From a virus, in IMG/VR virus record IMGVR_UViG_3300029448_000032, positions 1 through 60,124 of that record: a stretch of DNA of 60,124 nucleotides; one strand, written 5' to 3'. This document shows positions 3,601 through 49,773 of the stretch, piece by piece; position 1 is the stretch's first letter; each line of letters opens with the position of its first letter. The position numbers were made by a program, and so were the translations under genes. The notes below the pieces were generated by a model. It was not told the DNA's origin. It saw nothing but the letters and a program-made list of their open reading frames with translations, and did not search any database.

Positions 3601-4715
3601 GAGGATTCGGTGCTGCCACAGGTAAAGTGACCCCTCATAGAAGAACATCTGCTGGATACCAGAAAATACAAGAATTAGGTTTCTTAGATTGGGAAGTAGG
3701 TGCAGCTCATACAACAGGCGTTAGTGAAACTGGTCGTATGCACCAACGTGTTTTAGATTTATACTTTAAAACTATTCTATTACAGCAATGGACTAATGCT
3801 ACTCGTGCATCAAGAGCTGCTATCGCAGGAGACTATATAGTAGATAAAATAAATATATTAATTGAAGCACAAATGCATGGAATAGTAGAAGCTGGAACTG
3901 ACTTTAATAGAAAGGCTACTTATACTAATGAAGTTGCAGAAGCTGAAGAAGCATTACGTAATTTAGGTATAGATCCTAGATGGATGGTAGACTATCATAT
4001 GGGATTTCCAGATATGGGTAGGGCTAGTGATCCAAGTTTAAATGTTAGTGATCTTGGTCGACCTAGCAGAGAACCTACTGAGATAGAAACAGAAAAATAT
4101 ACACGAATGATGAATGATGCTACGTTTAGTTTTGTTAATGAGGCTGTCGCTTTGCCTCAATCTGGAAACAGACCTTTGATCTTTCAAGATCCTAGGTTCG
4201 CTTTGTTTACTCAGTTCCAAGGTTTCATAGCTACATTCCAAGCAAACCATTTGCCTAAGATGTGGGCAGAAATGGCAAGACGTGGTACTCCTGCAATGAA
4301 GTATAATGTTTTTGCTACTATGTCTACTATGATTTTATTAGGGTTTGTATCACAACATCTTAAAGACTTATTAAAGTATGGAGAACCAACTCCTTATTTT
4401 AAAGATATGGAATACGTTAGAAGAGGTGTTGCATCCAGTGGATTATTAGGTACATCAGAAAGAGTTTTAGACTTTGTTTTCCCTATGTACCAAGAGAGAT
4501 ACAAAACAAATATTGGTTGGGCATTTGGAACTATATCAGGAGAATCTGCTGCATTAAGTAAAGCTCTTAGAATAGGAGAGTTAGGAGTAGATGTAGCTCA
4601 AGGAGAAAGAGGACTGGGAAGTGCTGCTATGAAGATCTCTCCTTTAGCACAAGCAGCTTATCAAGCACAGAAAAATATACCTCGATGGAATTTTGGAGAT
4701 AACACATGGCAATAA
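618..4715 (+). CDS. Giant internal virion (ejection) protein with N-terminal SNase-type nuclease domain
   Basis: A 1,365-residue protein in the position of the T7 gp15/gp16 core proteins. Residues about 20-125 match the staphylococcal (thermo)nuclease fold: LDADT (D27, D29) for the Ca-binding DGDT, FRLQGIDAPE (R47, D52, E55) for the catalytic RLxxxDxPE, and LGREI (R102) for the second catalytic arginine. All active-site residues are therefore present. About residues 280-360 and 1235-1255 contain hydrophobic, glycine-rich stretches that could enter a membrane; much of the rest is helical and polar. It follows the transglycosylase-bearing protein and overlaps the next gene by 10 bases. The role in DNA ejection is inferred from position and size; the nuclease domain is seen directly. 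Confidence 0.75.
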   Translation: MERMSLSERLAPVVSNTDLNEEFRFLDADTVESKVDFDDQGRPLRFRLQGIDAPEVAKYFGVDNIKASTSGSNKANLALMNLAKKEGFTNVIRSGRFDALGREIIDLQDEAGRSWENTLIKTGVLDPTRYTSNEAIKANIVAEAIGTHGQGEDWDVARNAIADAIYDETKYETMIKQQAIDETELAYGGNYFMPGSVKYRSFDRDLRNKATSPFATAWDVGLTGAIEGLYGAVEMTGETTGWDWAKNVGENGIYRARREIARKPEIVTSYKDIDGFFGRDGFLQYVANNAAISLPYMATTMAGTLAAPFTYGTSLLAPVSLYSGTVWNDMEGDNKNAPLAIVTGVAQTALDRLGLGFLAKGTLLSKEGRQTAVNALINKARTEGVKVSGITVIPRGTELSKEAASNLILTYSRQETAKLATDAAKFAKDQLRMRNVVKSQLKRLAVGGTGEGITEALQESIGYTAAHHANGFRDWNAHEFKDRLIDATIAGTSLGGAFSVPGGVYDYGAWTDVAYRTGTNTGKQTSKMGKLAERDIAKNGQQYNIQEENDTNKFETERQSGDPFFDSNEDINDQAERHEKKLKQRDMAQIIRDSFTNFPRLYRGIMRSAFGNMGFADELQNNSTTARIMAEKYGGNLQRSVSGESYENRKHHEISKIRHILGDVSNILAGFGRSDKRKARIKFSQEFYEAFNRAHEKAAAEGREVNWETDLEGPLSENIPAFIALVGKLNEVGNRMHNMQSKHNPQLGKIKDYLARHRSINKEAVEKNRAGFENALLNLKDSRGRPLVTPEQASELTEAIIRQDGVNDISDLTAGKDGFSVVSKATFKPQSHRKRTLNLSDNPEFNEFLEMDLFSNISNAAKSAVRYTVLEEFVGADNKKINNDLAKVKEELMGSGWSEADAQSRVDKLSYDMKRFLNAESGNYKRIQNPIWLFAQKNLLFVTTITGLPLATLSNFVELALVSKSLNVSQIVGKDGSIASISRNFVNELNNTARRGFGAATGKVTPHRRTSAGYQKIQELGFLDWEVGAAHTTGVSETGRMHQRVLDLYFKTILLQQWTNATRASRAAIAGDYIVDKINILIEAQMHGIVEAGTDFNRKATYTNEVAEAEEALRNLGIDPRWMVDYHMGFPDMGRASDPSLNVSDLGRPSREPTEIETEKYTRMMNDATFSFVNEAVALPQSGNRPLIFQDPRFALFTQFQGFIATFQANHLPKMWAEMARRGTPAMKYNVFATMSTMILLGFVSQHLKDLLKYGEPTPYFKDMEYVRRGVASSGLLGTSERVLDFVFPMYQERYKTNIGWAFGTISGESAALSKALRIGELGVDVAQGERGLGSAAMKISPLAQAAYQAQKNIPRWNFGDNTWQ

Positions 4716-7700
4716 GAGTAAACCCACAAGGAGCTTTAACAGAAGATACTAGAGCTAAGGTTGCTGAGAATGTAAAGCGCATGACAATGGCTGAAAGGTT
4801 TAAAGCAAAACCTTTACTAAAAACTCCAGTCGATCAGTTGAATGTAACAGGAGATCGTCCGTATCTTACAGCTGTAGATGATTACAAAGTAAATAAGTTT
4901 ACACCATCTGCTAACACAAGTCCTTACGCAAGTACTACAGTAACACGAAGCAGACGTGAGAGACTAGATAAAGAAAGAGAAGATGATATTAACGCAAAGC
5001 GTTATGAAGAAGATTTGCTTGCACAAAAACAGCTTGACCGAGAAGAAGCTCTTTCTGAAAGAGAACCTAAAATTCGAGCTATATGGAATCAAGGAGTCCA
5101 GCAAGATGAGGTAGGAAAAAGATTAACTACAGCAGAAGCAGATCAATTACGTCTTAGTACAGGTGTATCTGAAAGTGTAGTAGGAATAGGAGATGATGCT
5201 ACTGGACATATGATTAGAAGGGCTAATCGCTTTGTTAATCTAGCTCACGATACAAAATTAAACTTTACATCAGATGATTATGCTCGTAATATAAGAGCCG
5301 ATCAATCTACAATTTCTGATGAAACTTGGGCTAGACAATCAGCAGCTGCTAGAAAAACAGGTCAGACACTTACTGCTGCAGGGTTTCAACTTAATGATAT
5401 TATGAAAGACCCAACCGGTAGATTGAGTGAAGCTCAAATAGAAAACATAGCTCAGTTCGCAGCAGGCCCTAATGAAAAGTCAAGACCTAGAATTGGAGGT
5501 ATGTATATTCCTAAGCAAACCCGTGGTGTTAACTTAGGTAATGTGTATGAAGAAACTTCTTTAAGAAGAGGTGTGCAACAAGCTGAAGGTAGTCTTCCAC
5601 TAGTAAGCGATCCTAGAAATGAAGGTCAATATAGAGAAGCTACTTTTTTAGATCAGTATAACAAAGAGATAATATCTAGAACAGGTTCAGATAAAAATGT
5701 TATAGATCCATTAAGTGTTAAAGGTATTATGTTTAATCCTGACGGATTTGATGCTGGAGTATTTGATAGAGAAGGGAACATGGTAGTTGATCCAACAGCT
5801 TTAACTACTATGGCTTTAGCTACTGAGATCTTCCTTAATAAAGCACAGTATCAAAAAGATACTACTCCTATAGAAGGTGATGCAGTTCTAGAGAAAGAGT
5901 CTGTTAAAGATAAAGCCTTAAGAGAAGCACAAGATACTACTTTTTCACCAGAAGGTGGAATCGGAAGAGTTGAAGGTAATGCAGAGTTAGGAAGAGAAAT
6001 CTTTAAATCTTGGAAGCGTGAACAAAACTTAATGAACAATAGACCTAGTGACCAATATAATATAGACGCACTTAGTAACAATGAATTCGTAGCTTTAGGA
6101 ACTCTAGCTAAAGAGATGTATCATATGGCTAACCCACATTTACTAACAAGGATAAGTAATGAGGGAGGTTTTGATGCTGACGCAATAGGAGATCACGTTA
6201 ACTCTTCAGTTGAATTCAGGTTAACCGATCTAGGTAAAAAGGTTTTTCTTGAAACTCAGAAGTCATCTCCAGATGCTTTCAGAAATTATGAAATAAAAGC
6301 TAGACATAGCAAGAAATCTAGAGCTCTTCAAGATACAAGAACAGAGAAGGATGTTTATTTAAAATCAGCAACAACTGTTATTAAACCTGAAGTACATGAA
6401 GCTATAGAAGAAGCTCGCTTTAATATGGGTAATGTAGGTCATGTAATTGACCCGCTTAGACGTAAAATAGTTACGCAGCTTGCGATCACTGCACTGGCTG
6501 AAATGAAGAAACCCGGCGCGATTCCTAAGGTCGGTGACTTTTTTGATGTTGGCCAAGTAAAACTTGATGCCTTTAATGCAGAACTTAACAACAAAAGAAG
6601 AAGTCGTAATTATGTAGAGGGTGAGTATCGTCCTGAATATGAATTAGAGAAGCAGCTTACTAAACTAATAGAAATGCTTAATACTGTAGGAGTAAATAGT
6701 AATAAAGTTAATTACTTAGATTTTGTGTTACAAAGTCTTACTCATAGAATGCATGCAGGTCAAACAAGATTTAATCCACAATTAATTCCTTTGTTAAGGT
6801 ATATTACAGGTGGTGCAGTTCCTACTGCTGTTAATACTGCTGGTACTTCTGATGCTAACCTTATGTTTAAAGAGTTAATGGCTATTCATTTTCTTAAAGA
6901 AGATGCTGACGGTAAAAAGAGTAAATTCGATTTGCCTGAAACTAGAGTAAAGAACTTCGATGCAGAATGGGCAAAACCCAATCATGGTAGATTAGGACCT
7001 TATATCTCAGCTGGTAATGCTATTAGACAAAGCTTACTAAATAATGAGCAAGATGCTAAGTACACTGAAGCATTATCTAATATAAGATTAGAAGAAATAA
7101 AGAGTGATCCTTTAGGACAAGAGCAAAGTCTTAGTGATTTAGCTATTCAAGGAGGATTTGAACCTGTACCAGAATCTACTAGTCCTCTTAGTAAAAAAGC
7201 TCAAGGAATTGTTATACCCCCTGAATTACTTGATGTTCCTGGTTTAAATATGGGAGATGGTTTACTTAATGAAGCTAGTAAGGAAGGTATTGAAGGGCTT
7301 CATTTAGTTGAGGCAGCTCATGAGTTAGCTATGTGGGCTGAAGCTCGGAAGTCTAATGATCCAGCAAAGCAAACATTTAATTCTAATATAGGAGTAGAGT
7401 TTGACGGACTAACACATGGACCTGCTTCTTGGGTTGCAACATTAGGATCTATTGTAGCTGGATATAGAACAGGTATGTTTAGAAAACCTGGTGCTACTCA
7501 AAAATTAGATGAGTTCAATAGACAGAACATGTTAGATGTGTGGCTTGAACACCAGCCAGACGAGTATGTTGAAGCAGATCCTTCTCCTGACCAAGTAGCT
7601 GGAGATTTTAGAAATGCAATGGGCGTTTGGATGCTGTCTGAAGGGGAGAAGTATGCTAATCGTGTTAATCCTAGACATGCTGCAGAGTTATACGAGATAT

Positions 7701-11837: not shown

Positions 11838-12186
11838 TATTTCTCCTAGTTTTGCGGAACGGATTATGTGTAACGTTAAACAGGTCACACCCATTCCTTA
11901 AGCAACATTTTATTTCATGAGATTCTACTACAGTAGCTTCTTTATCTGTCATCTGTCCACCTTTAATCACAACAACATCTTGTATTTTGTGGACAGACAA
12001 CTTATCAAGCAACCAAATATGGTGGTCATAACCACGGTTAGTTATCTGGTATGCTCTATGTAAAGTACCCTTACCAACGTATACTACGTTATCCGTTTCC
12101 GGATCTTTATGAAAGTAAACACAGTACATATCTTCAGGATACTTTACAACTTCATGGGTATCTTCTCTAATCTCTATCTGACGCAA
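11728..12186 (-). CDS. GIY-YIG-like nuclease domain protein
   Basis: A 152-residue protein. Residues about 20-107 look like a GIY-YIG fold: VYFHK, then VYVGKG at about 35-40, an arginine at 44 and a glutamate-rich helix (EATVVESHE) near 82-90. Such domains make DNA strand breaks in homing enzymes and repair nucleases. The start overlaps the dCMP deaminase stop by 20 bases, and the last 36 codons overlap the RNA polymerase start by 110 bases in another frame. Target and role are unknown; it could be a free-standing homing-type endonuclease or a host-DNA nuclease. Confidence 0.7.
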   Translation of the reverse strand: MRQIEIREDTHEVVKYPEDMYCVYFHKDPETDNVVYVGKGTLHRAYQITNRGYDHHIWLLDKLSVHKIQDVVVIKGGQMTDKEATVVESHEIKCCLRNGCDLFNVTHNPFRKTRRNNAEHNRVFRTENYKYTAEVGSKAGERTQAGSEAVSI

Positions 12187-12613
12187 TTTCTACTCCATAT
12201 TTTTTGAGTAGTTCTAAAGGTTCTGTGTCAGGAACTCTAAGATCTAGCTCTTTACTAGGTTTACAGTATACTTTATCGTATACTAGTCTCTTAATACCCG
12301 CCTGTAATATGAGTTTAGTACACTCTTTACAAGGCGAGTATGTTAGATATAATGTAGCACCTTCAGAAGAAGAAGTTGAAGCAGCCAATTTAGCTATAGC
12401 ATTTGCTTCGGCATGAACGACTTCCCACTTAGTGTTTCCAGCACCATCGCGGGTTTCATTAATCATACCATGGGGAGTGCCATTCCAACCATAACTAAGT
12501 ATCTTATTACCATTAGCTATAACTGCTCCAACTTTATAGAGATTATCACGAGATCTTTTGCCAACTACTTCGGCCATCTTAAGATACATGTGATCGTCTT
12601 TAGATAACGTCAA
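12167..12613 (-). CDS. dCMP deaminase (zinc-dependent cytidine/deoxycytidylate deaminase family)
   Basis: 148 residues with the zinc site HAEANA (His and catalytic Glu) and PCKEC, plus the family's SYGWNGTPHG substrate loop. It converts dCMP to dUMP, the substrate of the ThyX encoded at 28874. It sits between primase-helicase and the GIY-YIG gene with short overlaps on both sides, so it is co-transcribed with the replication genes. It would compete with the phage dCMP hydroxymethylase (18360-19050) for dCMP. Confidence 0.93.
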   Translation of the reverse strand: MTLSKDDHMYLKMAEVVGKRSRDNLYKVGAVIANGNKILSYGWNGTPHGMINETRDGAGNTKWEVVHAEANAIAKLAASTSSSEGATLYLTYSPCKECTKLILQAGIKRLVYDKVYCKPSKELDLRVPDTEPLELLKKYGVEIASDRD

Positions 12614-14201
12614 AGCTATCTCCTTTCTGTAATCTACCGGTGCGCATATTATAATTACTTATACCTGCTGGTCCAGTTAATCCAGTAAACCTTGACTTTA
12701 ATACGGTCAACTGAATTTGATTACGATCTTCTTCATTAGGTGCGACAAGGTTTCTTGAGAAAGCTATAATATCAAACGATATTTGTTTGATACTACCACT
12801 ACCCTTTATGTCATCGATAGAAGCCATATTACCTTCTTCGAAAGCTTTACCACCTGACTTACGTAAGTGACTTACTATACCTAACCAGATGTTATGCTTC
12901 TTAACTACCTTAAGTAGATCAGACATAACCTTGTCAACCGCTTCGTTGCCTGATAGTCCTTCACTACCTTCAGATACAGCTATAGTTATATGGTCTAAGA
13001 ATAAATACTTACATCCCATAAGAGCCATATACTCTATCTTATCTAGTAATGAACTATCTTCAACAGAACCTTGGTGATCTAATAAAACAAGACGTTCGTC
13101 TTTAAATACCTTTTCAAAGCCGGTTCTCATTTCATATTCACTTATAGGTTCATCACCACCAATACGTTTATTAATAGTCATACCAATAAACTTCTCAGCG
13201 GTATCACCTACACTTTCTTCAAGAGATATTAAACCAATACGGTCATCTTTAGTAGTAGATAGTAGATGCCATATGATCTCTTTTATTACAGTAGATTTTC
13301 CAGAACCAGTACCACTAGTGAACAAAGTTATTTCACCGTGTCTCATTCCCTTTAGTTTATCGTTTAAACCTGTTAAACATTCAGGATAAGGTACCGACTG
13401 AACGTTCTGGCGTTCAACAAATTTATCCCATATACCTTCACCAGTAAGGATACCAGCAGGATTATATTGTTGAGCATTCCAGATAGCATGAGAAACTTCT
13501 TTACTTCCTTTACTCATAAACAAATCGCTAGCATCTTTCTCTTGTACAGTTACGACCTTAACTTTGTCAAAACCTATAATCTTACTAGCTTGAGATATAG
13601 CTTTCTTTCCTGCTTCATCATTGTCAAACCATAATATTACATCATCAAATCTTCTGATCCAATCTCGGTTATCTAATAGTATTTGTAGTTGATTAGCAGA
13701 AGGAATAGATACAACAGGATAAATCCTTTTACTTATATCTAACCAAGCTTGACCTATAGATAGAGCATCGAGTTCACCTTCAGTTATGACTAGCATTTTA
13801 CCACCACCATTAAACTTGTCTTGTCCAAATAGTTTCTTTGGTTTTCCTACTAATCTAAATTCTTTAGGTAATATTCTAATTTTGTAGCAGTCATCTCCAT
13901 AAGGATAGAAATGAGCTGGCTGGTTGTTATACTGATGAGTCTTTACTCCAAAGTATTTTACTACATTCTCTGAAATATTGCGACTAGGCATACTATGCCC
14001 AGGATAGTTAGAAATATCGGTGATGTCAGATTGTTTATTATTATTTGTATCGGTAATGGGTTCAATAGCATTATCTCCTTTAGTATATACGCCACACGCA
14101 AAGCAATAAGTGTGGTCATCAGATGGATCATGCATTAACCCATCTGAACTACCACAATCTTTGCATTCATATCTAGCATTATCGTTTAATTTCTTCAACA
14201 T
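12600..14201 (-). CDS. T7 gp4-like primase-helicase
   Basis: 533 residues. The N-terminal zinc ribbon has C13, C16, C33 and C36. The TOPRIM motif VITEGELDALS lies near residue 135, followed by FDNDEAGKK. A RecA-type helicase core has Walker A GTGSGKST near residue 300 and Walker B YLFLDH near 395. It primes lagging-strand synthesis and unwinds DNA at the fork together with the phage PolA. Start codon region overlaps the end of the RusA gene by 23 bases. Confidence 0.95.
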   Translation of the reverse strand: MLKKLNDNARYECKDCGSSDGLMHDPSDDHTYCFACGVYTKGDNAIEPITDTNNNKQSDITDISNYPGHSMPSRNISENVVKYFGVKTHQYNNQPAHFYPYGDDCYKIRILPKEFRLVGKPKKLFGQDKFNGGGKMLVITEGELDALSIGQAWLDISKRIYPVVSIPSANQLQILLDNRDWIRRFDDVILWFDNDEAGKKAISQASKIIGFDKVKVVTVQEKDASDLFMSKGSKEVSHAIWNAQQYNPAGILTGEGIWDKFVERQNVQSVPYPECLTGLNDKLKGMRHGEITLFTSGTGSGKSTVIKEIIWHLLSTTKDDRIGLISLEESVGDTAEKFIGMTINKRIGGDEPISEYEMRTGFEKVFKDERLVLLDHQGSVEDSSLLDKIEYMALMGCKYLFLDHITIAVSEGSEGLSGNEAVDKVMSDLLKVVKKHNIWLGIVSHLRKSGGKAFEEGNMASIDDIKGSGSIKQISFDIIAFSRNLVAPNEEDRNQIQLTVLKSRFTGLTGPAGISNYNMRTGRLQKGDSFDVI

Positions 14202-15375: not shown

Positions 15376-15728
15376 TGATAGTATATCTCCGGTTTATCGT
15401 TGTTTTTAAGATGTACTATGTCAGCGTTATACAAAGGCTTTTTAGTTTCTTTATTAACAAATGTAGAATGTTTATAAGGATTATAAGTCGCCTGCTTGGT
15501 CATACTAAAATAGTCTTCACTGTTCTGTATATTAGATAGTGTACCTCTAACAAAGGCATGGACATTCTTTTTACGTTCAGTTAAAACTTTAGCACGACCA
15601 GCAGGTTGAACTACAAACTCAGCATCTTTTATAAACACATCATCGCTATGTAGTATAACTATACCTTTATATCTTACTGAGAATATCTTCTTATGTAAGT
15701 TATAGTATACGTCTACCTTAGACATCAA
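15372..15728 (-). CDS. Conserved-looking hypothetical protein downstream of DNA polymerase
   Basis: 118 residues (MMSKVDVYYNLHKKIFSVR...), predicted mixed alpha/beta, rich in Lys and Tyr, with no membrane segment. It overlaps the PolA stop by 4 bases (ATGA), so translation is coupled and a role in replication is likely. I cannot assign a function. Confidence 0.7.
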   Translation of the reverse strand: MMSKVDVYYNLHKKIFSVRYKGIVILHSDDVFIKDAEFVVQPAGRAKVLTERKKNVHAFVRGTLSNIQNSEDYFSMTKQATYNPYKHSTFVNKETKKPLYNADIVHLKNNDKPEIYYQ

Positions 15729-17584
15729 TGTACCTCCGCGTAAGACTTACCTATTACATAGTCACCACCATCCATACACTCAACACCAAACCATTTAGGT
15801 GCTTCACGAAAAGATTCTTGTAGGATTTCTCCAACACGGTTAGAATCTTTATCACTTGCTATCCAAGCTTGTTCATCATGGTAGAATATAGCAGGATAAG
15901 CATCAAGCTTTTCCTCTTTAATCTTATTCATAGCATAACTAACAGAGGCTTTACAAGTAATACCTTCAGCAGTTTGAAGTAAGTAATTAAGAACTTGGTA
16001 ATCAGACCTAGCAAATATTTTACGACCATCAAGAGCTGGTATAGACCCATACTTATTGAACACAGATCGTAGTTTGTTAACTAGTCTCTCAAATCCTGGT
16101 AAGTTAGCCATGAATTTTCTTCTAGCTTCTTTACCCTTAGGTATACTACTAACTCCTGTAAGAGTTTGTCCAAGCTTAGCATCACCTGCACCAAACAGAA
16201 CAGCATAAAGAAATGATTTAGCTAAAGGTCGAGAGCAATTAAGAACAGCTGCGTTACGAGCATGTTGGTCTCCATTAATAACTAGATCTGTGTAAGCTTT
16301 ATCTCCTACATAATGGCATAGCCCACGTAACTGGTTGCCAGCACTATCAGCACCAACAACATTATAACCTGGTTCAGAGATAAATAATTCTCTTAGCATT
16401 TTACCATAGTCTGCATCAACTGCAGGAAGATTAACAATAACTTCGTGACGACATCTAAAAGAAGGCGTACCAATAGTAAACATTCTTCCATGAAGACGTA
16501 CTCTATCGTTATCATCTTTCCATAGTTTCTCTATCCAAGATTCTATAGTAGCTTTACGGTTCTTTATAGTATAGTATCTATCAATGAGAGTACCTCTGCT
16601 ACCTAGTTTTCTCAATGAAGTTGTTGTAAGTTTAGGCCCGGTCTTTATCCATTGACCGTGACTTCCCTTCTTTACGTTCCAATCATCAGGCTTCCATCCA
16701 ATAGTATGCAGCCAGCTTTTAACTAGATCCATATTACTAAGAGTAACCTTTTCTATAGAAGTTCTTTGGAACTCTGTTCCAGGTAACATAGGTGGAGAAT
16801 CAGATAGAGCATCTTCACCAATCACTTTGCGACCAAGAAACTCAGATAATATTCTAGCAGTAGTTGCAGTATACAATCCAGCTTTAGTATACTTAGGAGT
16901 CTTCGGAGCTTTATCAATAAAGACTTCAGTAGTTCCTAAGTTAGGTTCAATTATAGATTCAATCTTCATCATGTGTTTAGTCATGAGTCTTAAGTTTTCT
17001 TTAGCTTTATCTAAATCAAACAACCAACCCTTCTTACGTACCATAGATTCAAAGATTGCTATATCATGTTCAACACGTAGACCTTTCTTAATTAGTTCAT
17101 TAGATTCTACAGCTGTATGTAGTTCAGCTAGCAGTACTTCATAAACCTTTGTGTTAAGTCTTACGTCTTGTTCACAATACTTTATCATGCCGGGATCGTA
17201 TGTCTTAAATCCCTCATTAGCCCATTCAGTATTGTCCATCTTCTTAAACCCAAGATGTTTACCCCATCCAGCAAGACCATGTCTGTGTGGTCTATTATAT
17301 CTTAATACCTGAGACATAACCCAAGTATCAATCAATGCAGTATGGGAAGACGGTCTCCAGTTAAAGAGCTTCTCTAGTCCCATCAAGTCGAACCCAATAA
17401 TGTTATGGCCTATTAATGCGTCAGCTTTAGACATTAAGTCTAGACCTATTTTAATAGGAGTATCATTAGGTTGATCTGTATATCTATAGATCTTCTTAGT
17501 TATAACATCTTGGCATATAAGTACGTGACAAGTAGTCATCTCTTCTAAGAATCCATCTGTTTCTATATCAAATACAAGTTGCAT
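15725..17584 (-). CDS. polA: Family A DNA polymerase with 3'-5' exonuclease
   Basis: 619 residues (T7 gp5 is 704). The exonuclease domain has FDIETDG (D5, E7) and ALIGHNIIGFD near 70. Polymerase motif A is GADSAGNQLRG near 415, motif B is KSFLYAVLFGAGD near 458, and motif C is YHDE near 570. The residue equivalent to E. coli Pol I 762 is Tyr, as in T7, and the 766 position is Phe instead of Tyr. Tyr/Phe at 762 is generally associated with virulent phages. There is no 5' nuclease domain; that is a separate gene. AAAGGA precedes the ATG, and a GCGCGAT hairpin lies 27 bases upstream. Confidence 0.97.
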   Translation of the reverse strand: MQLVFDIETDGFLEEMTTCHVLICQDVITKKIYRYTDQPNDTPIKIGLDLMSKADALIGHNIIGFDLMGLEKLFNWRPSSHTALIDTWVMSQVLRYNRPHRHGLAGWGKHLGFKKMDNTEWANEGFKTYDPGMIKYCEQDVRLNTKVYEVLLAELHTAVESNELIKKGLRVEHDIAIFESMVRKKGWLFDLDKAKENLRLMTKHMMKIESIIEPNLGTTEVFIDKAPKTPKYTKAGLYTATTARILSEFLGRKVIGEDALSDSPPMLPGTEFQRTSIEKVTLSNMDLVKSWLHTIGWKPDDWNVKKGSHGQWIKTGPKLTTTSLRKLGSRGTLIDRYYTIKNRKATIESWIEKLWKDDNDRVRLHGRMFTIGTPSFRCRHEVIVNLPAVDADYGKMLRELFISEPGYNVVGADSAGNQLRGLCHYVGDKAYTDLVINGDQHARNAAVLNCSRPLAKSFLYAVLFGAGDAKLGQTLTGVSSIPKGKEARRKFMANLPGFERLVNKLRSVFNKYGSIPALDGRKIFARSDYQVLNYLLQTAEGITCKASVSYAMNKIKEEKLDAYPAIFYHDEQAWIASDKDSNRVGEILQESFREAPKWFGVECMDGGDYVIGKSYAEVH

Positions 17585-17646: not shown

Positions 17647-17823
17647 TTAATAACCTTTAGTCTTATTTAATCCTTGTTCAATCTCTTTAATCCTATCTTT
17701 AAGTACATTGATAGTAATTAAGAGCTCATTATTTTTTACTGAAGTAACTTCCTCTAGTCTAGTAACTAAAATGTTTACTTCAATCTTTAAATAAAATAAA
17801 TGGTTGATGCTTTGGCTACTCAT
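17647..17823 (-). CDS. Small coiled-coil hypothetical protein
   Basis: A 58-residue protein (MSSQSINHLFYLKIEVNIL...) with a continuous leucine/isoleucine heptad pattern over most of its length, so probably a short coiled coil. I use the ATG at 17823, whose ATGAGTAG overlaps the MazG-like stop by 8 bases; an in-frame upstream ATG would overlap further. The GCGCGAT hairpin follows it. Confidence 0.6.
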   Translation of the reverse strand: MSSQSINHLFYLKIEVNILVTRLEEVTSVKNNELLITINVLKDRIKEIEQGLNKTKGY

Positions 17824-18301
17824 AGTTTTCATAACCGCCATCATTAGAATGATGTAGTATAATGTGAGTATCTCCTACGTTATCAGCATGGTTAGGTCCA
17901 ACCCATCCCTCTGGTTTAATCATATCAGGTAAACCTAATGGATTAGGTCTTGAAGGTTTCTTTCCAGGTTCTTTACTCATGTTAGCTTTATGAACCCTTG
18001 ACCAAGCTTTATTAGCGTCAACACCTAGAATATCTAACGTACCTATTGCTACCACACATAAATCTATAAGACCATCAACAACTTCTTGTGCGTTCTTATC
18101 TAACACGGCTGCAGCTTTAGTCTCGTTAAGTTCTTCTTCTAAGAATTTAATACGAAAATTTAAGAATTCTCTTAAAGTATTGTAGTCTTCTTCATCTATC
18201 TTACGAGCCATCCACTTATGCACACCAAATTTCTGATGCATTGCATGAATGTCTTCTGCCCACGAAGATCGTTTGCCATAAACTCCAGGATATTTCATCA
18301 C
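17816..18301 (-). CDS. MazG-like all-alpha nucleotide pyrophosphohydrolase
   Basis: 161 residues. The metal-binding signature is visible: FLEEELNET (E55, E56, E57, E60), then EVVDGLIDL (E73, D76, D80), and the family's AWSRVHKANMSK tail near 99-110. These enzymes hydrolyse (d)NTPs to monophosphates. It lies directly downstream of the dCMP hydroxymethylase; T4 pairs gp42 with a dCTPase (gp56) of related all-alpha type, so a dCTP-to-dCMP role is a reasonable inference, not shown by sequence. The C-terminal 45 residues (Pro/Gly/His-rich) are outside the fold. Confidence 0.8.
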   Translation of the reverse strand: MMKYPGVYGKRSSWAEDIHAMHQKFGVHKWMARKIDEEDYNTLREFLNFRIKFLEEELNETKAAAVLDKNAQEVVDGLIDLCVVAIGTLDILGVDANKAWSRVHKANMSKEPGKKPSRPNPLGLPDMIKPEGWVGPNHADNVGDTHIILHHSNDGGYENYE

Positions 18302-18359
18302 ACACTCTCCTTTATGTCGGTAATGTCGGTTAAGTTAAATAAAATTTTAAAGGTACTAC

Positions 18360-19050
18360 TCATCCAGACCTCATAGGTACTACATAGTCTTTAGGTTTAA
18401 TACATTCTTCTATTAAATGAAAATGTCTAGGATATACATGAAGGTTCTGAACCTGCCACGTAATATGCCCTGCTTCAAGACCGAGATCTATCGCAAGACG
18501 GTTAATTACTTTAACTTGCCAAGCATAATCATTAATGTACCCAAATACCGCATCGTTTGAGCGCATCTGAACTACACCATAGAGCGCTGTTCCTCTTTTA
18601 TAGTATGTTACAGCATTTGTACAGACAAAGTCATTCTTACCATGCTCTATGGCCGTCTGATGCATGTCTGGGTTTGTGTATATCATAGTAGCTCTTCGAG
18701 AATTAGGACGTAGCTTTAATTCTTGGACTACATTATTATATTGGCTGCCATTCTCTTTACTATAGATTAAGTATCCATAGTTAGAGTTAATGTCACCATC
18801 AGTATTAGCGGTTACATCCTTCCATATAGCAGGAACCTTACCGTAAATATCTCCTAAATCATTTACGTTTAGACTTTGAGAATCATACCACTCTAATTCA
18901 GCTTCAATGTACTTAACATTTCTTTCTCCGAATATAGTCGGTTCATCAGCAAGGAAGCTGGCAGCTCTTATCTCGAGCGTACCATCTTCCTGAAAGTCTT
19001 GGTTCTTATACAGTTGAATGAATTCTTTTTTGATTTCACCCGACAGCATT
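18360..19050 (-). CDS. dCMP hydroxymethylase (T4 gp42-type, thymidylate synthase fold)
   Basis: 229 residues from the ATG at 19050, which has AGGAAG 5 bases upstream; the open frame extends further without a better start. It parallels T4 gp42 (246 residues) over its length: ASFLADEPTIFG near 30-41, INSNYG at 87-92, SRRATMIYT at 117-125, the catalytic cysteine C143 in DFVCTN, and MRSNDAVFGYINDYAW at 162-177. D174 stands where thymidylate synthase has the Asn that selects dUMP; Asp here (D179 of T4) selects dCMP. It should make 5-hydroxymethyl-dCMP using methylene-tetrahydrofolate. Flanked by MazG-like and DUF1599-like genes. Confidence 0.93.
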
Positions 19051-19437
19051 AGCTTCCTTTCTTCTATGTTTAAAATAGTGGTCAACCATTTGTTGGTCAC
19101 ATACAAATGTTTTACCTGAGCCTTGTTCTGTTATTTGATAAGGTCTTTTTCTAGCCTTACTCTTATAACCGGTAAGTTTAAATTGCTTACCATCTATCAT
19201 GGCGGTAACATTAGTATCTAAATCATGGAGTCTAGCCCATACATCTAAGTCTTTCTTTTCTTTAGACCTATTTCCTTTGATTCTAGCTATAACTTTAAAT
19301 GTAACTTCATCTTCATCGTAGCTAGCATTACCTACTTTAATATCTAAATCAGGTAACTCGTCATAAGCTCTCATATTTATAGAGCTTTGTAGTTGATTTC
19401 TAATTTCTTTAACAAGTTGTTTATTAAATGATTGCAT
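19036..19437 (-). CDS. Hypothetical protein upstream of dCMP hydroxymethylase
   Basis: 133 residues (MQSFNKQLVKEIRNQLQSS...). Residues 1-25 are helical, followed by acidic beta-strands (DEDEVTFKVIARIKG) and a Lys/Arg-rich C-terminus with two cysteines or fewer. It overlaps the hydroxymethylase gene by 15 bases, so it is translationally linked to the nucleotide-modification block. Small phage proteins of this general shape recur in other phages as far as I know, but their function is not known to me. Confidence 0.65.
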   Translation of the reverse strand: MQSFNKQLVKEIRNQLQSSINMRAYDELPDLDIKVGNASYDEDEVTFKVIARIKGNRSKEKKDLDVWARLHDLDTNVTAMIDGKQFKLTGYKSKARKRPYQITEQGSGKTFVCDQQMVDHYFKHRRKEANAVG

Positions 19438-19453
19438 TATAGTATTCCTTTTT

Positions 19454-19921
19454 TTAAGATGGTATAGCTGAAGTTACTCCACTATGAGGGAATATCTCAC
19501 ACTCATGGCAGAACGGTTCTTCTAAAGTATTATCGTTAGGATCATCGTAAGATAACGAGTCTTGCCCACATATAGGACATAGACCACTATTAGGATTCTT
19601 ACGTTCTAACCATACGATACAACGACTCGCGTAGTTTATTAGATCTATTAAGCAGTCTTCAGCAGAATCAAAGTTAACATCACCATCTTGTTCCATTACA
19701 GACCGGAATCTTAAAATCTTGGTAGACATCATAGTGTCAAATGACTTCCATCCATGAGGATAATAGTCTTCATCACATACTGAGCCACCTTGATAGTCTT
19801 TATTCTTCTTACTCATAAGATCTATACATCGGCTAAGAACTTTCTTTGAGTCTTCTAAGTAAGATTCAGTACTCATAACTCTGAAGTCTAGATTATTATT
19901 GTTTCTTAAGTTTAATGACAA
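19454..19921 (-). CDS. DUF1599 / Nmad1-like protein with C-terminal zinc ribbon
   Basis: 155 residues. The core SKKNKDYQGG ... W ... TMMSTKILRFRSV ... SAEDCLIDLINYASRCIVWL resembles DUF1599, also called nucleotide modification associated domain 1, which occurs next to base-modification genes. A zinc-ribbon-like CPICG ... CHEC follows near residues 113-140. The start is a TTG with GGAG at normal spacing; the first ATG (codon 16) has no ribosome site. Located in the same block as dCMP hydroxymethylase. Domain assignment is from memory of the motif. Confidence 0.7.
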   Translation of the reverse strand: MSLNLRNNNNLDFRVMSTESYLEDSKKVLSRCIDLMSKKNKDYQGGSVCDEDYYPHGWKSFDTMMSTKILRFRSVMEQDGDVNFDSAEDCLIDLINYASRCIVWLERKNPNSGLCPICGQDSLSYDDPNDNTLEEPFCHECEIFPHSGVTSAIPS

Positions 19922-19987: not shown

Positions 19988-20842
19988 TTATGCTGCCAAT
20001 AAACTTTGAAATTGAGGAGAACTAGTCCATTTAGTTACCTCTTTTTCTCGGTTCCACATTGACACAGCTTGAGTATCGTTACCTGTGTTACGTAGTTTAA
20101 AACCATTACGCTTATCAGCATAACTAGCGTAGTTAGTGAATGCACTGTAGATAGAGTAAACGTTTTCTCCACGAGTAGATACTTCTTGGTTGTACAAAGA
20201 TACCATCTTCTCAGCTTGTTTTTCATTCATAATTTTCTTGAATAAATCTTCAACATCTGTATAAGCCGTTGATATTCTTGCCCAATTTTGTAGCATGTCG
20301 GCTTGCTCATAAAAATCGTTAGAAGATCTTTCAAGTTGAGTAGCGAAAGCTGCGATGCTAAAGCCTGAAGTGTTCTTACGTTTAACAATATCGTGCTCAC
20401 CTCTTATCATCTTGTTGGTGCAAAAGAAAGAGATCTGTCCATACACTACAGTGTTAGAGCATAAACCGTCTATTCCGTGTAAACCTATAATACGCTGACC
20501 GATTTTCTCTGAATGCTTGTCGGTAAAGATATCAAAACTTACGTTAGGTAACGTGATATCCATCATCATGAATCCCCCGTTACGAGCAGTACTCCATTTA
20601 ATATGGCAGTCTTGCAGCTCATTGTCGGTTAGTTTATCTTTCATAGTATTCCAAACTGTATGAGCAAAATTACTATGGTTAGTAGCTGTGAAGTCGTTAC
20701 CTACTACATTTAGGTACTGACCTGTGTCTTCTCGATATACATATTTCTTGCCATCGATTTTTGTCGGTTCATACCCTATATCAAAGCTTATATCATCGGG
20801 CACACTGAACTGATCTGTCCTTGTTGTAACATAATCTAACAT
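19988..20842 (-). CDS. DUF932-family phage/plasmid-like protein
   Basis: 284 residues. The layout (N-terminal RTDQFSVPDDI, a central beta-rich region, FFCTNKMIRGEHDIVKRKNTSGF near 160 and a helical C-terminus with WNREKEVTKW) fits the DUF932 family found in phages and plasmids. The biochemical role is not known. GAAGGAA precedes the ATG. It lies between the structured RNA region at 20866-21124 and a GCGCGAT hairpin, so it forms its own transcription segment. Confidence 0.75.
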   Translation of the reverse strand: MLDYVTTRTDQFSVPDDISFDIGYEPTKIDGKKYVYREDTGQYLNVVGNDFTATNHSNFAHTVWNTMKDKLTDNELQDCHIKWSTARNGGFMMMDITLPNVSFDIFTDKHSEKIGQRIIGLHGIDGLCSNTVVYGQISFFCTNKMIRGEHDIVKRKNTSGFSIAAFATQLERSSNDFYEQADMLQNWARISTAYTDVEDLFKKIMNEKQAEKMVSLYNQEVSTRGENVYSIYSAFTNYASYADKRNGFKLRNTGNDTQAVSMWNREKEVTKWTSSPQFQSLLAA

Positions 20843-21700: not shown

Positions 21701-21930
21701 TAGTAATTCTCCGTTGGAACGAGCTCTAAGCAGAGCGTTTGCTTTCGACTGTACATCGGTTTATAGCTTAAAGGATTCTTGTAACCCTTTGAAAACGTTA
21801 TAAAAATCTCATCAGATCTTTCGTGACAAGCCTCATAACTAGTGTACGGTCCTTGAGTATCGAGAATGTAGAAACATTCGTTAGTATAAATGTGACATAG
21901 CAACAAAGCTACTTTGATGGGATACATCAT
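21700..21930 (-). CDS. Small cysteine-patterned protein (paralogue of the 29632 ORF)
   Basis: 76 residues. The order is a hydrophobic N-terminus, then C12, C19, LDTQGPY, C35 and C67. The same arrangement (C, C, LEDTEG, K-C, C) appears in the late-arm protein at 29632-29832, so the two look like divergent relatives, probably disulphide-containing and exported. No function assigned. Confidence 0.55.
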   Translation of the reverse strand: MMYPIKVALLLCHIYTNECFYILDTQGPYTSYEACHERSDEIFITFSKGYKNPLSYKPMYSRKQTLCLELVPTENY

Positions 21931-22139
21931 TAGCTTTGCTGCTTAATCAGTTCTTCGAGATACCACTTAGCTTTGTTCAAATCACTAGCTGCCTTACCTT
22001 TATATCGGTAACGCCAAATGTATTTGATAATATTGCCTTGTAGATATCCTTCATATCCATCACTACACGCTGCTTTTATGGCGGTTATGCATTCGATATC
22101 GCCTTGTTTGTAATGAGGTGGATTTATTTCGTTACTCAT
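21930..22139 (-). CDS. DUF3310-family protein
   Basis: 69 residues matching DUF3310 end to end: NPPHYKQGDIECI, GYLQGNIIKYIWRYRYKGKAASDLNKAKWYLEELI. The family is widespread in phages and sometimes labelled nucleotide kinase-like without proof. It overlaps the next upstream gene by 8 bases. Confidence 0.85.
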   Translation of the reverse strand: MSNEINPPHYKQGDIECITAIKAACSDGYEGYLQGNIIKYIWRYRYKGKAASDLNKAKWYLEELIKQQS

Positions 22140-24426: not shown

Positions 24427-24819
24427 TTATAAGAAAAAGAGCTCATCTCTGGCTTTCATAAGTAGCTCAGGAAAAGCTTTTTTCCAATAGCCTTTTTCTT
24501 GGACATGCGTAAGTTCATATCCTTTAGTTTTCCATAAAGCTTTTAAAGCATAATCATGCTCATTAAAGCTCTTTAAAATAAGCTTATACATTAGAGTTCG
24601 ATTAATATCTTTATTGGCTTTATAGTTTCCAGTATGCTTTACACCATTATCCCATTTCTTATTATAGGTTAGTTCATCGAATGTTCCAGATTTCCAAGTC
24701 TGGTACGCATGCTCAACGGATTTATATTCTAGTCCGTTAGTATCTTTAAATGGTCTAAGAGAAAGATTGCTTAAGATAGCATTCTCTCCGGTTCCATAAT
24801 ATATATTTAAGGTTTTCAT
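24427..24819 (-). CDS. NADAR/YbiA-family protein (DUF1768), possible anti-defence ADP-ribosyl glycosidase
   Basis: 130 residues with the family pattern from end to end: LSNLSLRPF near 18-26, YKSVEHAYQTWKSG near 32-45, NRTLMYKLILKSF near 73-85, LTHVQEKGYWKKAFPELLMKARDEL near 103-127. NADAR proteins cleave N-glycosidic bonds; some remove ADP-ribose from guanine in DNA and neutralise DarT1-type toxins. As one of the first leftward genes, preceded by the AT-rich palindrome at 24848 and by a terminator, it is a candidate counter-defence gene. The substrate is inference. Confidence 0.82.
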   Translation of the reverse strand: MKTLNIYYGTGENAILSNLSLRPFKDTNGLEYKSVEHAYQTWKSGTFDELTYNKKWDNGVKHTGNYKANKDINRTLMYKLILKSFNEHDYALKALWKTKGYELTHVQEKGYWKKAFPELLMKARDELFFL

Positions 24820-28782: not shown

Positions 28783-28877
28783 TTATTAACATAATTTGTT
28801 TTGCTTTTATGGGAATTGGTTTTGCTGTAAATGTGGCTCTTTTAATCCATCTTTCACAAATAAAGGATCGAATATGA
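28779..28877 (+). CDS. 32-residue single-pass membrane protein
   Basis: MIINIICFAFMGIGFAVNVA then LLIHLSQIKDRI: one transmembrane helix and a short charged tail. ATGA overlaps on both sides couple it to the SleB gene and thyX. Small holin-like or accessory lysis protein is possible. Confidence 0.5.
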   Translation: MIINIICFAFMGIGFAVNVALLIHLSQIKDRI

Positions 28878-29584
28878 TAAATGAGATAAAAGTAGATCTT
28901 ATAGATTCTTGTGGTACAGACTTAACTGTAGTTAATGCTGCAAGAGTATCATTCGATAAAGAAGCAGAGTGGGGTTGGGAGAGATACGATCAAGATGACT
29001 TTAAGAGAGTATTAAGACCAAGAGACAAAAAACTTATTGAGTACTTAGCTGAGCATGAACACTGGAGTCCTTTTGCCCACACGTTTTTGCAATTCAGAAT
29101 AACAGCTCCAATCTTTGTTGCTCGTCAGTTGGGTAAACATCAGGTAGGCCTAGTATGGAACGAGGTTAGCAGAAGATATGTAGACGAAGATCCTGTATTT
29201 TTTAAACCTAAAGAATTTAGAGGAAAACCTATAAATAAAAAGCAGGGAAGTTCTAAAGAAATAATAGATATAAATCCTTCTACAGGGTCTGGTCCTATGT
29301 TTGTAGATGAATATGATAGAGTCATGAACACCAGTAAGTGGACATATAATCAGTTATTAAGTTTAGGTGTATGTCCTGAGCAAGCACGTTTAGTATTACC
29401 ACAAGCAATGATGACGAGCTGGTATTGGTCAGGATCTTTGTTTGCTTTTTCGAGAGTATATAACTTACGAAGTAAAGAGGATGCTCAAGAAGAATGTCAA
29501 GATGTAGCTAAAGAATTAGATAAACATTGTAAACATAAATTTCCTATATCGTGGAAACACTTAACCACAGGAACTGTCCCCTAA
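28874..29584 (+). CDS. thyX: Flavin-dependent thymidylate synthase ThyX
   Basis: 236 residues from the ATG at 28874, preceded by AAAGGA; the longer frame upstream is the 32-residue gene in another frame. ThyX features: HEHWSPFAHTFLQFR near 55-70, then the FAD/dUMP motif VARQLGKHQVGLVWNEVSRRY (phage variant of RHRxxSxNExS) and RLVLPQAMMTSWYWSG near 175. It methylates dUMP from the phage dCMP deaminase. A phage promoter-like element overlaps its stop. Confidence 0.95.
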   Translation: MINEIKVDLIDSCGTDLTVVNAARVSFDKEAEWGWERYDQDDFKRVLRPRDKKLIEYLAEHEHWSPFAHTFLQFRITAPIFVARQLGKHQVGLVWNEVSRRYVDEDPVFFKPKEFRGKPINKKQGSSKEIIDINPSTGSGPMFVDEYDRVMNTSKWTYNQLLSLGVCPEQARLVLPQAMMTSWYWSGSLFAFSRVYNLRSKEDAQEECQDVAKELDKHCKHKFPISWKHLTTGTVP

Positions 29585-35174: not shown

Positions 35175-35197
35175 TCTTGCTTAAAGAGGAGAACCAA

Positions 35198-35623
35198 ATG
35201 AGACATTCAGATATTATCGATTTTTTTAATTTTCATACACCTTATGCTATCGGATTTGATACATTAGTAGAAAGACTAAATCAAACTTGTAAATATACTA
35301 ATACAGATACTTATCCACCATATAATATTATAAAGGAAAGTGCTGAAAATTTTAAAATAGAAATGGCTTTAGCAGGCTTTGATAAAACTGAAATAGAAAT
35401 CAGTGTTGCTGATGGAGTATTATCAGTTAAGTCTATTAAAGAAAACAAACAAAGTGATGATAATCTATACAGAGGAATCTCTTATAGAAAATTTGATAAG
35501 AAGTTTACATTAGCGGAAGATGTTGTCGTAAAAGACGCAGAGCTAATTAATGGTTTATTATCTATTAAACTAGAAAAAATACTTCCAGAGGAAAAGAAAC
35601 CTAGGAAGATTACGATTAACTAA
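35198..35623 (+). CDS. Hsp20/IbpA-type small heat shock protein
   Basis: 141 residues from the ATG with AGAGGAGAACC upstream. Alpha-crystallin domain: YPPYNI near 40, FKIEMALAGFDKTEIEISV, GISYRKFDKKFTLAEDV, NGLLSIKLEK and the PEEKKPRKITI tail. These ATP-independent holdases keep unfolded proteins soluble; in a phage, placed between portal and capsid genes, it probably helps virion assembly or host proteostasis. Confidence 0.93.
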   Translation: MRHSDIIDFFNFHTPYAIGFDTLVERLNQTCKYTNTDTYPPYNIIKESAENFKIEMALAGFDKTEIEISVADGVLSVKSIKENKQSDDNLYRGISYRKFDKKFTLAEDVVVKDAELINGLLSIKLEKILPEEKKPRKITIN

Positions 35624-48012: not shown

Positions 48013-49773
48013 ATGCAAGTAGATTTCATAGGACCAACAAAGAAAGTTTCTCAAGAAATAGACGAATTAAAGTATCGTCAGAAAGGAGAAAGCTTTAACG
48101 AAAAGATACAGAGAATATCTAGAGCTTTGAGCGATGATATTAATCACAGACATAGTTTAGAAGATATCTTAGGTACTATGAGGTTCTTACCAGCTGGCAG
48201 AGTACAATCAGCTATTGGATCTAATAGAATCACTACTGCTTATAACTGTTTTGTTTCAGGTAAAATAGAAGATAGTATGAATAGCATAATGGAGAAGGCT
48301 AGTGAAGCTGCTGAGACAATGCGTAGAGGAGGTGGCATTGGCTATGACTTCTCTAAGATACGGCCACGTGGTGACAGGATTAAATCTTTGGACTCACAAT
48401 CGTCGGGACCTGTTAGTTTTATGGCTATATTTGACGCTGTTTGCCAGACCATCGCGTCTTCAGGACATAGGCGGGGCGCTCAGATGGGCGTTTTACGGGT
48501 GGACCATCCGGACATTAAAGAGTTCGTTATGGCTAAACGTAATTCTGATAAGCTTACTGGGTTTAATGTTAGCGTTGGAATAACTGATGAATTTATGGAA
48601 GCACTAATAAATGAATCTGACGATTCTTTTCAATTAAAGTTTAATGACCAAGTATATGATACGATATCTGCAAAAGAGTTGTGGAAGGTTATTATGGAAT
48701 CCACATGGGATTGGGCAGAACCAGGAGTTTTATTTATAGATAGAATAGAAGAGATGAATAATCTTTCTTACTGTGAGAAGATAGCTGCTACTAATCCTTG
48801 TGGAGAGCAACCACTCCCTCCTTATGGAGCTTGCTTATTAGGAAGCTTTAATCTAACTAAGTACTTAGAAGAACACGATGTTGGAACTGAGTATAAACAT
48901 TATGTCTTTAACTTCGATCAATTCAAAAAAGATATACATGACGTAGTCAGAGCTATGGATAATGTTGTTGATAGAACTATATACCCACTAAAGAAACAAG
49001 CGGATGAAGCTAAAGACAAACGTAGAATGGGGCTTGGTGTAACTGGATTAGCTAATGCAGGAGAGATGTTACTACTACCATACGCTTCTGATAAGTTTAT
49101 GGTATGGGCAGAGAAAGTATTTGCTTGTTTAAGAGATAATACATATAAGGCTTCAGCTTTATTAGCAAAAGAGAAAGGTCCATTCCCACAATATAGACCA
49201 GAGTATTTGAAATCTAACTTTGTAAGAACATTACCAGCATCTGTTAAAAAATTAATAAGAGATCATGGTATTAGAAACTCTCATCTTACATCTATTGCTC
49301 CTACAGGAACTATTAGTTTAGTTGCTGACAATGTTTCAGGAGGTATTGAACCTGTATTTAGTCATTATTATGATAGAACTATTGAAACTTTTGAAGGTCC
49401 AAAAGTTGAAAGAGTAGAAGACTATGCTTACTCTCATGGAGTAAAAGGTAGAACTGCAAATGAAATTTCTGTTGATGAACATCTATCAGTATTATTACTA
49501 GCTCAACATTATATTGATAGTGCTTGTTCTAAGACATGTAATGTAGGGGATGAAGTTGAATACGATAAATTTCAACAGACTTATGTGGATGCCTGGAAAG
49601 GCGGGGCGAAGGGATGTACAACGTTCAGACTTAGTGGTAAAAGATACGGAATCCTTAATGCGCCCGTGGAAAAAGAAGAGGCGAGTACAAATGAGATTAA
49701 GGAAATTGAAGAACCGGAAAAAGTTGAAGCGTGCTTTTTTGACCCTACGACTGGGGCTAAGGAATGCGCTTAA
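48013..49773 (+). CDS. nrdJ: Class II (adenosylcobalamin-dependent) ribonucleotide reductase
   Basis: 586 residues. RRGGGIGYDFSKIRPRGD near 105, the radical-site NPCGEQPLPPYGACLLGSFN near 275-295, SIAPTGTISL near 430 and a C-terminal pair ACFFDPTTGAKEC that acts as redox cysteines. No small subunit gene is present, in keeping with class II. It makes deoxynucleotides and needs host B12. It sits alone among tail genes, preceded by its own phage-type promoter element. Confidence 0.93.
   Translation: MQVDFIGPTKKVSQEIDELKYRQKGESFNEKIQRISRALSDDINHRHSLEDILGTMRFLPAGRVQSAIGSNRITTAYNCFVSGKIEDSMNSIMEKASEAAETMRRGGGIGYDFSKIRPRGDRIKSLDSQSSGPVSFMAIFDAVCQTIASSGHRRGAQMGVLRVDHPDIKEFVMAKRNSDKLTGFNVSVGITDEFMEALINESDDSFQLKFNDQVYDTISAKELWKVIMESTWDWAEPGVLFIDRIEEMNNLSYCEKIAATNPCGEQPLPPYGACLLGSFNLTKYLEEHDVGTEYKHYVFNFDQFKKDIHDVVRAMDNVVDRTIYPLKKQADEAKDKRRMGLGVTGLANAGEMLLLPYASDKFMVWAEKVFACLRDNTYKASALLAKEKGPFPQYRPEYLKSNFVRTLPASVKKLIRDHGIRNSHLTSIAPTGTISLVADNVSGGIEPVFSHYYDRTIETFEGPKVERVEDYAYSHGVKGRTANEISVDEHLSVLLLAQHYIDSACSKTCNVGDEVEYDKFQQTYVDAWKGGAKGCTTFRLSGKRYGILNAPVEKEEASTNEIKEIEEPEKVEACFFDPTTGAKECA

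Follow-up and report, generated by a model that had tools for sequence, protein, structure and literature searches.

A predicted T4-type cytosine-hydroxymethylation cassette beside T7-like replication genes in a marine phage

The 5-hydroxymethylcytosine (hmC) of phage T4 DNA is textbook biology, and for its hmC pathway T4 needs gp1, a deoxynucleotide monophosphate kinase. Both gp1 and gp56, the enzyme that hydrolyses deoxycytidine triphosphate (dCTP), are present not only in T4 but in the T4-like Serratia phage Muldoon, where a protein of the Nmad1 (DUF1599) family directly adjoins the deoxycytidine monophosphate (dCMP) hydroxymethylase, and which also has its own alpha- and beta-glucosyltransferases. 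A wider view was provided by MetaGPA, in which native phage DNA was subjected to enzymatic selection for modified DNA: the Pfam families PF00303 (thymidylate synthase), PF01503 (PRA-PH), PF00383 (dCMP deaminase) and PF14437 (MafB19-deaminase) were found together on contigs that the selection had marked as cytosine-modified, and position 177 was occupied by Asp (PMC8670742). Does T4-type chemistry occur where replication resembles that of T7? The stretch considered here (‘the window’) is the 60,124 bases of a single IMG/VR virus record, IMGVR_UViG_3300029448_000032, from a marine virus of bacteria. One block on its minus strand has genes for a MazG-like pyrophosphatase, a dCMP hydroxymethylase of T4 gp42 type and an Nmad1 protein, all with plausible ribosome-binding sites (Table 1). 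The preliminary description, made from the sequence alone, took this block for a cytosine-modification module. The three-gene block is real, chance being excluded by E-values, purifying selection and conservation across relatives, and what the sequences predict of its products supports that reading.

Shared with the T4 pathway are the enzyme family and its catalytic residues, a dCMP deaminase and a precursor-clearing pyrophosphatase. The differences are that the window phage is small, with T7-like RNA polymerase and replication, that it has MazG for gp56, an added Nmad1, and ThyX rather than ThyA for thymidylate (dTMP), and that it has neither gp1 nor a glucosyltransferase. The enzyme adds a member to a known family, while the assembly is a variation on the T4-type system, with another phage lineage, another dCTPase, an extra Nmad1, no dedicated kinase and no glycosyltransferase. 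Window proteins match exactly the four families that co-occur on the MetaGPA contigs, and Asp at 177 is likewise shared; those contigs differ in being tied to carbamoyltransferases, and DUF1599 and podoviruses go unmentioned in the main text of that report (PMC8670742). In Pelagibacter phage Kolga EXVC016S the order is Nmad1, a gene of thymidylate synthase (TS) fold and MazG, followed by single-stranded DNA-binding protein and a related family-A DNA polymerase, but Kolga is a siphovirus and its TS-fold gene, with Leu145 and Asp179 in T4 numbering, is a predicted dCMP methylase. Roseobacter phage CRP-7, a podovirus by microscopy (PMC6918029), is the nearest isolate by portal (54% identity) and is also related in RNA polymerase (32%) and DNA polymerase (35%), but its complete genome has no TS-family gene; at the DNA level, the window has no relatives among isolated phages. 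A set comparable to that of the window is not known from T7-type phages, and searches of open-licence papers, made for T7-like and for pelagic phages, turned up none.

The case for the central enzyme is the strongest. When it was searched against the sequences of solved structures, entries for T4 dCMP hydroxymethylase took the first three places (best phmmer E 7e-55), with true thymidylate synthases trailing at E 2e-8 or worse. The check proposed earlier, a structure prediction set against T4 gp42, gave an AlphaFold model, built from 13 relatives (mean predicted local distance difference test, pLDDT, 89), whose best match in the PDB is T4 dCMP hydroxymethylase 1b49 (template modelling, TM, score 0.87; root-mean-square deviation 2.2 Å; 46% identity), whereas the thymidylate synthases among the matches listed have TM scores of 0.63–0.72. 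In the hydroxymethylase, dCMP is selected by Asp179, and hydroxymethylation depends on Asp145, three residues ahead of the catalytic Cys, thymidylate synthases having Leu there (PMC6400193); Asp or Glu at that place is the mark of hydroxymethylation as opposed to methylation. By alignment, the window enzyme has Asp145 in the motif NDFVC and Asp179 in the motif NDYAWQ, and it also retains Glu60, Trp82, Tyr96, Arg123, Arg124, Cys148, Ser169, Asp171, His216, Tyr218 and Arg220; Ala takes the place of Arg59, and nothing aligns with Lys28. The parallel with gp42 remarked on at the outset, catalytic Cys and dCMP-selecting Asp included, is thereby borne out, and all sequence tests able to tell a dCMP hydroxymethylase from a thymidylate synthase favoured the former. 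The gene is under purifying selection (ratio of nonsynonymous to synonymous substitution, dN/dS, 0.12–0.23), and its ATG start is preceded by AAGGAAG, the mechanically called open reading frame (ORF) opening further upstream at TTG 19106. In a phylogenetic tree the window enzyme groups with T4 gp42, and hydroxymethylases from the T7-like group make up a single clade (support 88/96) beside enzymes of marine T4-like phages, as would fit one acquisition from those phages or a source common to both. From family, predicted fold, residues and selection the protein is almost certainly a dCMP hydroxymethylase, with an activity predicted from that of its T4 relative.

Is the company it keeps fortuitous? 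Relatives were gathered independently of the hydroxymethylase, via the neighbouring DNA polymerase, and were counted as close if polymerase identity was 70% or more and the sequence reached 4.5 kb or more upstream. Nmad1, hydroxymethylase and MazG occur together in all nine close relatives and in none of the 14 of the next group (polymerase identity 45–56%), and of 50 polymerase loci lacking the module none had MazG or Nmad1 in sensitive profile searches. In the reverse direction, 78 other loci, many of them incomplete, were gathered via the hydroxymethylase; 64 of them have Nmad1, 55 a dCMP deaminase and 53 MazG, and at least 31 are on contigs with a T4-like family-B polymerase. Fisher values for the association assume independent loci, an assumption that does not hold. 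The context search for co-occurrence with the neighbours that had been suggested thus ties the hydroxymethylase to Nmad1 and MazG across dozens of contigs.

What is absent also matters. Bases 1–100 and 60025–60124 are identical at 99 of 100 positions, and an ORF leaving the right end resumes in the left-end ORF; the genome, of about 60.0 kb, is thus probably closed, which gives weight to absences from it. The window has no homologue of the T4 dCTPase gp56, none of the 78 hydroxymethylase loci has a gp56-like gene, and neither gp56 nor gp1 was found in the window, in loci L022, L026 and L071, in two large marine T4-like records or in Kolga. Since genomes without gp56 have MazG, the latter is the best dCTPase candidate. 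Its acidic residues E56, E57, E60, D76 and D80, invariant in 14 relatives, form the metal-binding motif EExxE...D, and direct homology between MazG and gp56 was not detected by profile search. Most likely MazG replaces gp56, as a putative pyrophosphatase of dCTP, or of dCTP and deoxyuridine triphosphate (dUTP), its dCTP specificity being read solely from the absence of gp56.

The block as a whole would make 5-hydroxymethyl-dCTP and keep ordinary dCTP from the phage polymerase, giving progeny DNA with hmC in place of C. MazG would cleave dCTP, and probably dUTP too, to the monophosphate. The gp42-type enzyme would then hydroxymethylate dCMP with methylene-tetrahydrofolate as its T4 counterpart does, Cys148 attacking C6, Asp179 protonating N3 and so selecting cytosine, and Asp145 activating the water that becomes the hydroxyl. 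The gap left in raising hydroxymethyl-dCMP to the triphosphate would be filled by a kinase, the one that the host has for CMP or, possibly, the DUF3310 protein considered below, and the family-A polymerase, which must accept the modified nucleotide, would incorporate it. The dCMP deaminase and ThyX would draw on the same dCMP pool for thymidylate; because ThyX supplies dTMP, a ThyA-fold protein is not needed for that purpose and is free for another job. Deaminase, ThyX and ribonucleotide reductase (RNR) share a nucleotide economy with the cassette, the role of RNR being precursor supply. Very likely the cassette yields hydroxymethyl-dCTP and hmC is the main form of cytosine in the virion DNA. 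With somewhat less assurance the base is taken to be left as plain hmC, as the window, just as was remarked before, shows no recognisable glucosyltransferase (none of the hmC glycosyltransferase family TAGT); sister phages would decorate theirs.

Several points weigh against this pathway. The solved structure nearest to the window MazG is DR2231, known as a MazG-like enzyme that hydrolyses dUTP. A gp1-type kinase (PF21448) is absent from the window, in agreement with the initial impression that no kinase for hydroxymethyl-dCMP was recognisable, and a scan for Walker-A kinases found none, with a pattern so strict that the variant present in the helicase itself escaped it; a true gap is left at the kinase step. 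For Nmad1, a search of the PDB with its model, a helical core (pLDDT 69), gave no significant match, only weak MazG- or HisE-like ones.

What, if not dCTP hydrolysis, might Nmad1 do? Its score against Pfam DUF1599 is under the cut-off (17.7 bits for a gathering score of 25; E 0.0047), and the Kolga and Muldoon proteins match the window Nmad1 profile at E 1e-36 and 1e-32. That it substitutes for gp56 was rejected, Muldoon carrying both, and because Muldoon has it in addition to gp56 it probably does something other than the gp56 job. It is an obligate-looking partner in the module, and its substrate is probably a nucleotide from the dCMP pool that the other enzymes share. Two neighbours had been offered as possible fillers of the pathway's gaps, and neither has gained support. 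The DUF3310 protein is 39% identical over 61 residues to the C-terminal part of T7 gp1.7, a protein of 196 residues annotated as a nucleotide kinase, but the N-terminal two thirds of gp1.7 is not present in its 69 residues. Each of the 14 module-less relatives that were checked has DUF3310; among 16 further records with a hydroxymethylase, several of them fragments, only 5 do. As a dedicated missing kinase it was rejected for its size and its occurrence without the module; as a weak candidate it may help as a deoxynucleoside monophosphate kinase that is not a dedicated part of the module. The 133-residue ORF is weakly constrained (dN/dS 0.6), its homologues are limited to L002, L028 and L031, and it has no family match; it was rejected as a pathway step and is probably not a core part of the cassette. 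A DUF932-type protein is encoded next to the cassette in the window and within the cassette of L026 (8421-9374), that of the window being under strong purifying selection.

Relatives vary the theme. Between Nmad1 and hydroxymethylase, L025, L026 and L030 have a gene for about 315–330 residues: those of L025 and L026 exceed the Pfam TAGT cut-off and match the HMC-alpha-glucosyltransferase PHROG at E 2e-30 and 2e-26, that of L030 is under the Pfam cut-off, and further glycosyltransferase-type cases are L112, L115 and L116. Sister phages with a TAGT-family gene are predicted to glycosylate hmC, and probably do so. In L012, L013, L016, L020 and others the insertion, between hydroxymethylase and MazG, is a 280-residue S-adenosylmethionine (SAM) methyltransferase, which may make an undescribed modified cytosine; of neither insertion has the window a homologue. 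A homologue of the methyltransferase is present in Stenotrophomonas phage AXL3, where a nucleoside triphosphate (NTP) pyrophosphatase gene adjoins it and a TS-fold gene lies close by; the latter has both of the key Asp residues, although it is of another TS-fold subfamily and on a long branch in the tree. AXL3 DNA was cut by two of 37 enzymes, those with A/T-only sites, and resisted all 35 with G or C in the site (PMC7504290). In the more distant L071–L074, as in Kolga, the frame is Nmad1, X and MazG, with X ThyA-like and having Asp179 with Leu145; such an enzyme is expected to be a dCMP methylase, and an N177D thymidylate synthase making 5-methyl-dCMP is documented (PMC8670742). Genes of this type, with Asp179 and Leu before the Cys, TS-like or annotated as TS, were seen in L009 (Kolga, 12930-13715), L071 (6540-7331), L095 (KF-1, 4998-5795) and L096 (PH1, 4989-5807), and by prediction these four phages may have 5-methylcytosine DNA. 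We put forward only tentatively, as something rather unlikely to hold in full, that Nmad1, a dCMP C5 enzyme and MazG form a portable cytosine-replacement platform. Phages would swap its central enzyme, be this a hydroxymethylase or a methylase, and also its tailoring gene, an HMC-type glycosyltransferase or a SAM methyltransferase where there is one at all; Nmad1 would be an enzyme required for the modified deoxycytidine nucleotide, and the base of the methyltransferase-bearing sisters could be, for example, O-methylated hydroxymethylcytosine.

How else could the window be read? The hydroxymethylase could be active and hmC yet be a small or transient share, host dCTP not being fully removed and the genes mainly salvaging nucleotides. 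The lack of a gp1-type kinase and of gp56 from an apparently closed genome speaks for this, but it is made improbable by the conservation of MazG and Nmad1 with the hydroxymethylase across phage lineages, and by the HMC-type glycosyltransferase of sister phages, which pays only if hmC is in DNA. Equally improbable is that some unrecognised enzyme, such as the 133-residue ORF or the DUF932 protein, tailors hmC further in the window phage. Relatives do have tailoring-type genes at neighbouring positions and the DUF932 gene has a dN/dS of 0.09; against that, the 133-residue ORF is not only weakly constrained but patchy, DUF932 has no known link to bases, and no signature of sugar or methyl transfer was found in the window. 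That the TS-fold enzyme is a flavin-dependent dCMP 5-hydroxylase like AfhB of phage HY126, giving DNA with 5-hydroxycytosine, is very unlikely: the AfhB structures 9iqu and 9iqc are among the next PDB matches after the T4 enzyme, but identity to 9iqu is only 22–23%, on which ground this identity was rejected, 9iqu has Glu three residues ahead of the Cys where the window and T4 enzymes have Asp, and the whole hydroxymethylase group clusters with gp42. An ordinary thymidylate synthase with a housekeeping MazG, as the Pfam family name and the commonness of MazG in marine phages might suggest, is scarcely credible, and identity with ThyA was rejected: E. coli ThyA has Asn177 and Leu at the two discriminating positions where the window enzyme has Asp, the phage already has ThyX, and MazG and Nmad1 are absent from relatives without the module.

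Replacement of cytosine by hmC, the reading preferred here, would be a T4-like solution reached with different helper enzymes in small marine phages with T7-like replication. Their close relatives provide a natural series, plain, glycosyltransferase-bearing, methyltransferase-bearing and with a methylase version, which allows it to be asked which helper is truly needed and gives Nmad1 a testable role. It also suggests that cytosine replacement in ocean phages is perhaps wider than annotations of ‘thymidylate synthase’ say.

Table 1. Positions of the cassette genes, of related window genes and of tailoring genes in other loci
Feature	Position	Strand	Remarks
MazG-like all-alpha NTP pyrophosphatase	17816..18301	-	GTG start; Pfam PRA-PH E 2.2e-8, above cut-off; PHROG 671 (pyrophosphohydrolase) E 2.9e-23
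dCMP 5-hydroxymethylase, T4 gp42 type (predicted)	18360..19049	-	229 residues from ATG; Pfam Thymidylat_synt E 2.3e-17
133-residue ORF between Nmad1 and hydroxymethylase	19036..19437	-	No Pfam or NCBIfam match
Nmad1/DUF1599 protein, Cys-rich C-terminal extension	19454..19921	-	TTG start with AAGGAG; PHROG 1485 E 2.6e-14
dCMP deaminase (dCMP to dUMP)	12167..12613	-	Same strand block; PF00383 E 1.1e-21; PHROG E 4.5e-43
Family-A DNA polymerase	15725..17584	-	Directly downstream of cassette; tblastn: Kolga 38%, CRP-7 35%
DUF3310 protein	21930..22139	-	69 residues; Pfam DUF3310 E 6.3e-19
DUF932-like protein	19988..20842	-	Adjoins cassette; dN/dS 0.09
ThyX, FAD-dependent thymidylate synthase	28796..29584	+	NCBIfam thyX E 2.6e-35, above cut-off
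Ribonucleotide reductase	48013..49773	+	Ribonuc_red_lgC E 9e-108, pooled scan; resembles Kolga's annotated RNR
TAGT/HMC-alpha-glucosyltransferase-family genes	L025:1351-2289, L026:6767-7708, L030:4189-5187		
SAM-dependent methyltransferase genes	L012:4908-5756, L013:8388-9236, L016:1939-2781, L020:7251-8090		

The order of minus-strand transcription begins with DUF3310, the DUF932-like gene, Nmad1, the 133-residue ORF, hydroxymethylase and MazG, and continues with the family-A DNA polymerase, a 5′-3′ exonuclease, a primase-helicase, the dCMP deaminase and a T7-like RNA polymerase. That the phage is a ‘T7-like podovirus’, as it was first called, stands for the single-subunit RNA polymerase and the replication genes, DNA polymerase and primase-helicase both being present, but not for the capsid: T7-type virion genes were not found in the window, capsid and adaptor being of SU10 type in a pooled scan and the portal nearest to that of CRP-7. 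‘T7-like’ fits only the transcription and replication genes because the virion genes are SU10-like, and a genome with SU10-type capsid and adaptor and a T7-like RNA polymerase is a mosaic of lineages. The SU10-type major capsid and adaptor matches, from the pooled scan, were placed by position and size at 37294-38472 and 39141-40010. Among the head genes, at 35177-35623, is one for an Hsp20 small heat-shock protein (pooled Pfam scan E 4e-19, assigned by sequence). The 1365-residue protein of 618-4715, with a start that by eye is staphylococcal-nuclease-like and with partial similarity to a large CRP-7 protein, is likely an internal virion protein. A weak NADAR/RibX-like protein (24427-24819; Pfam E 0.005, below cut-off; PHROG 1017 E 2e-8) is possibly linked to ADP-ribose/NAD chemistry in counter-defence.

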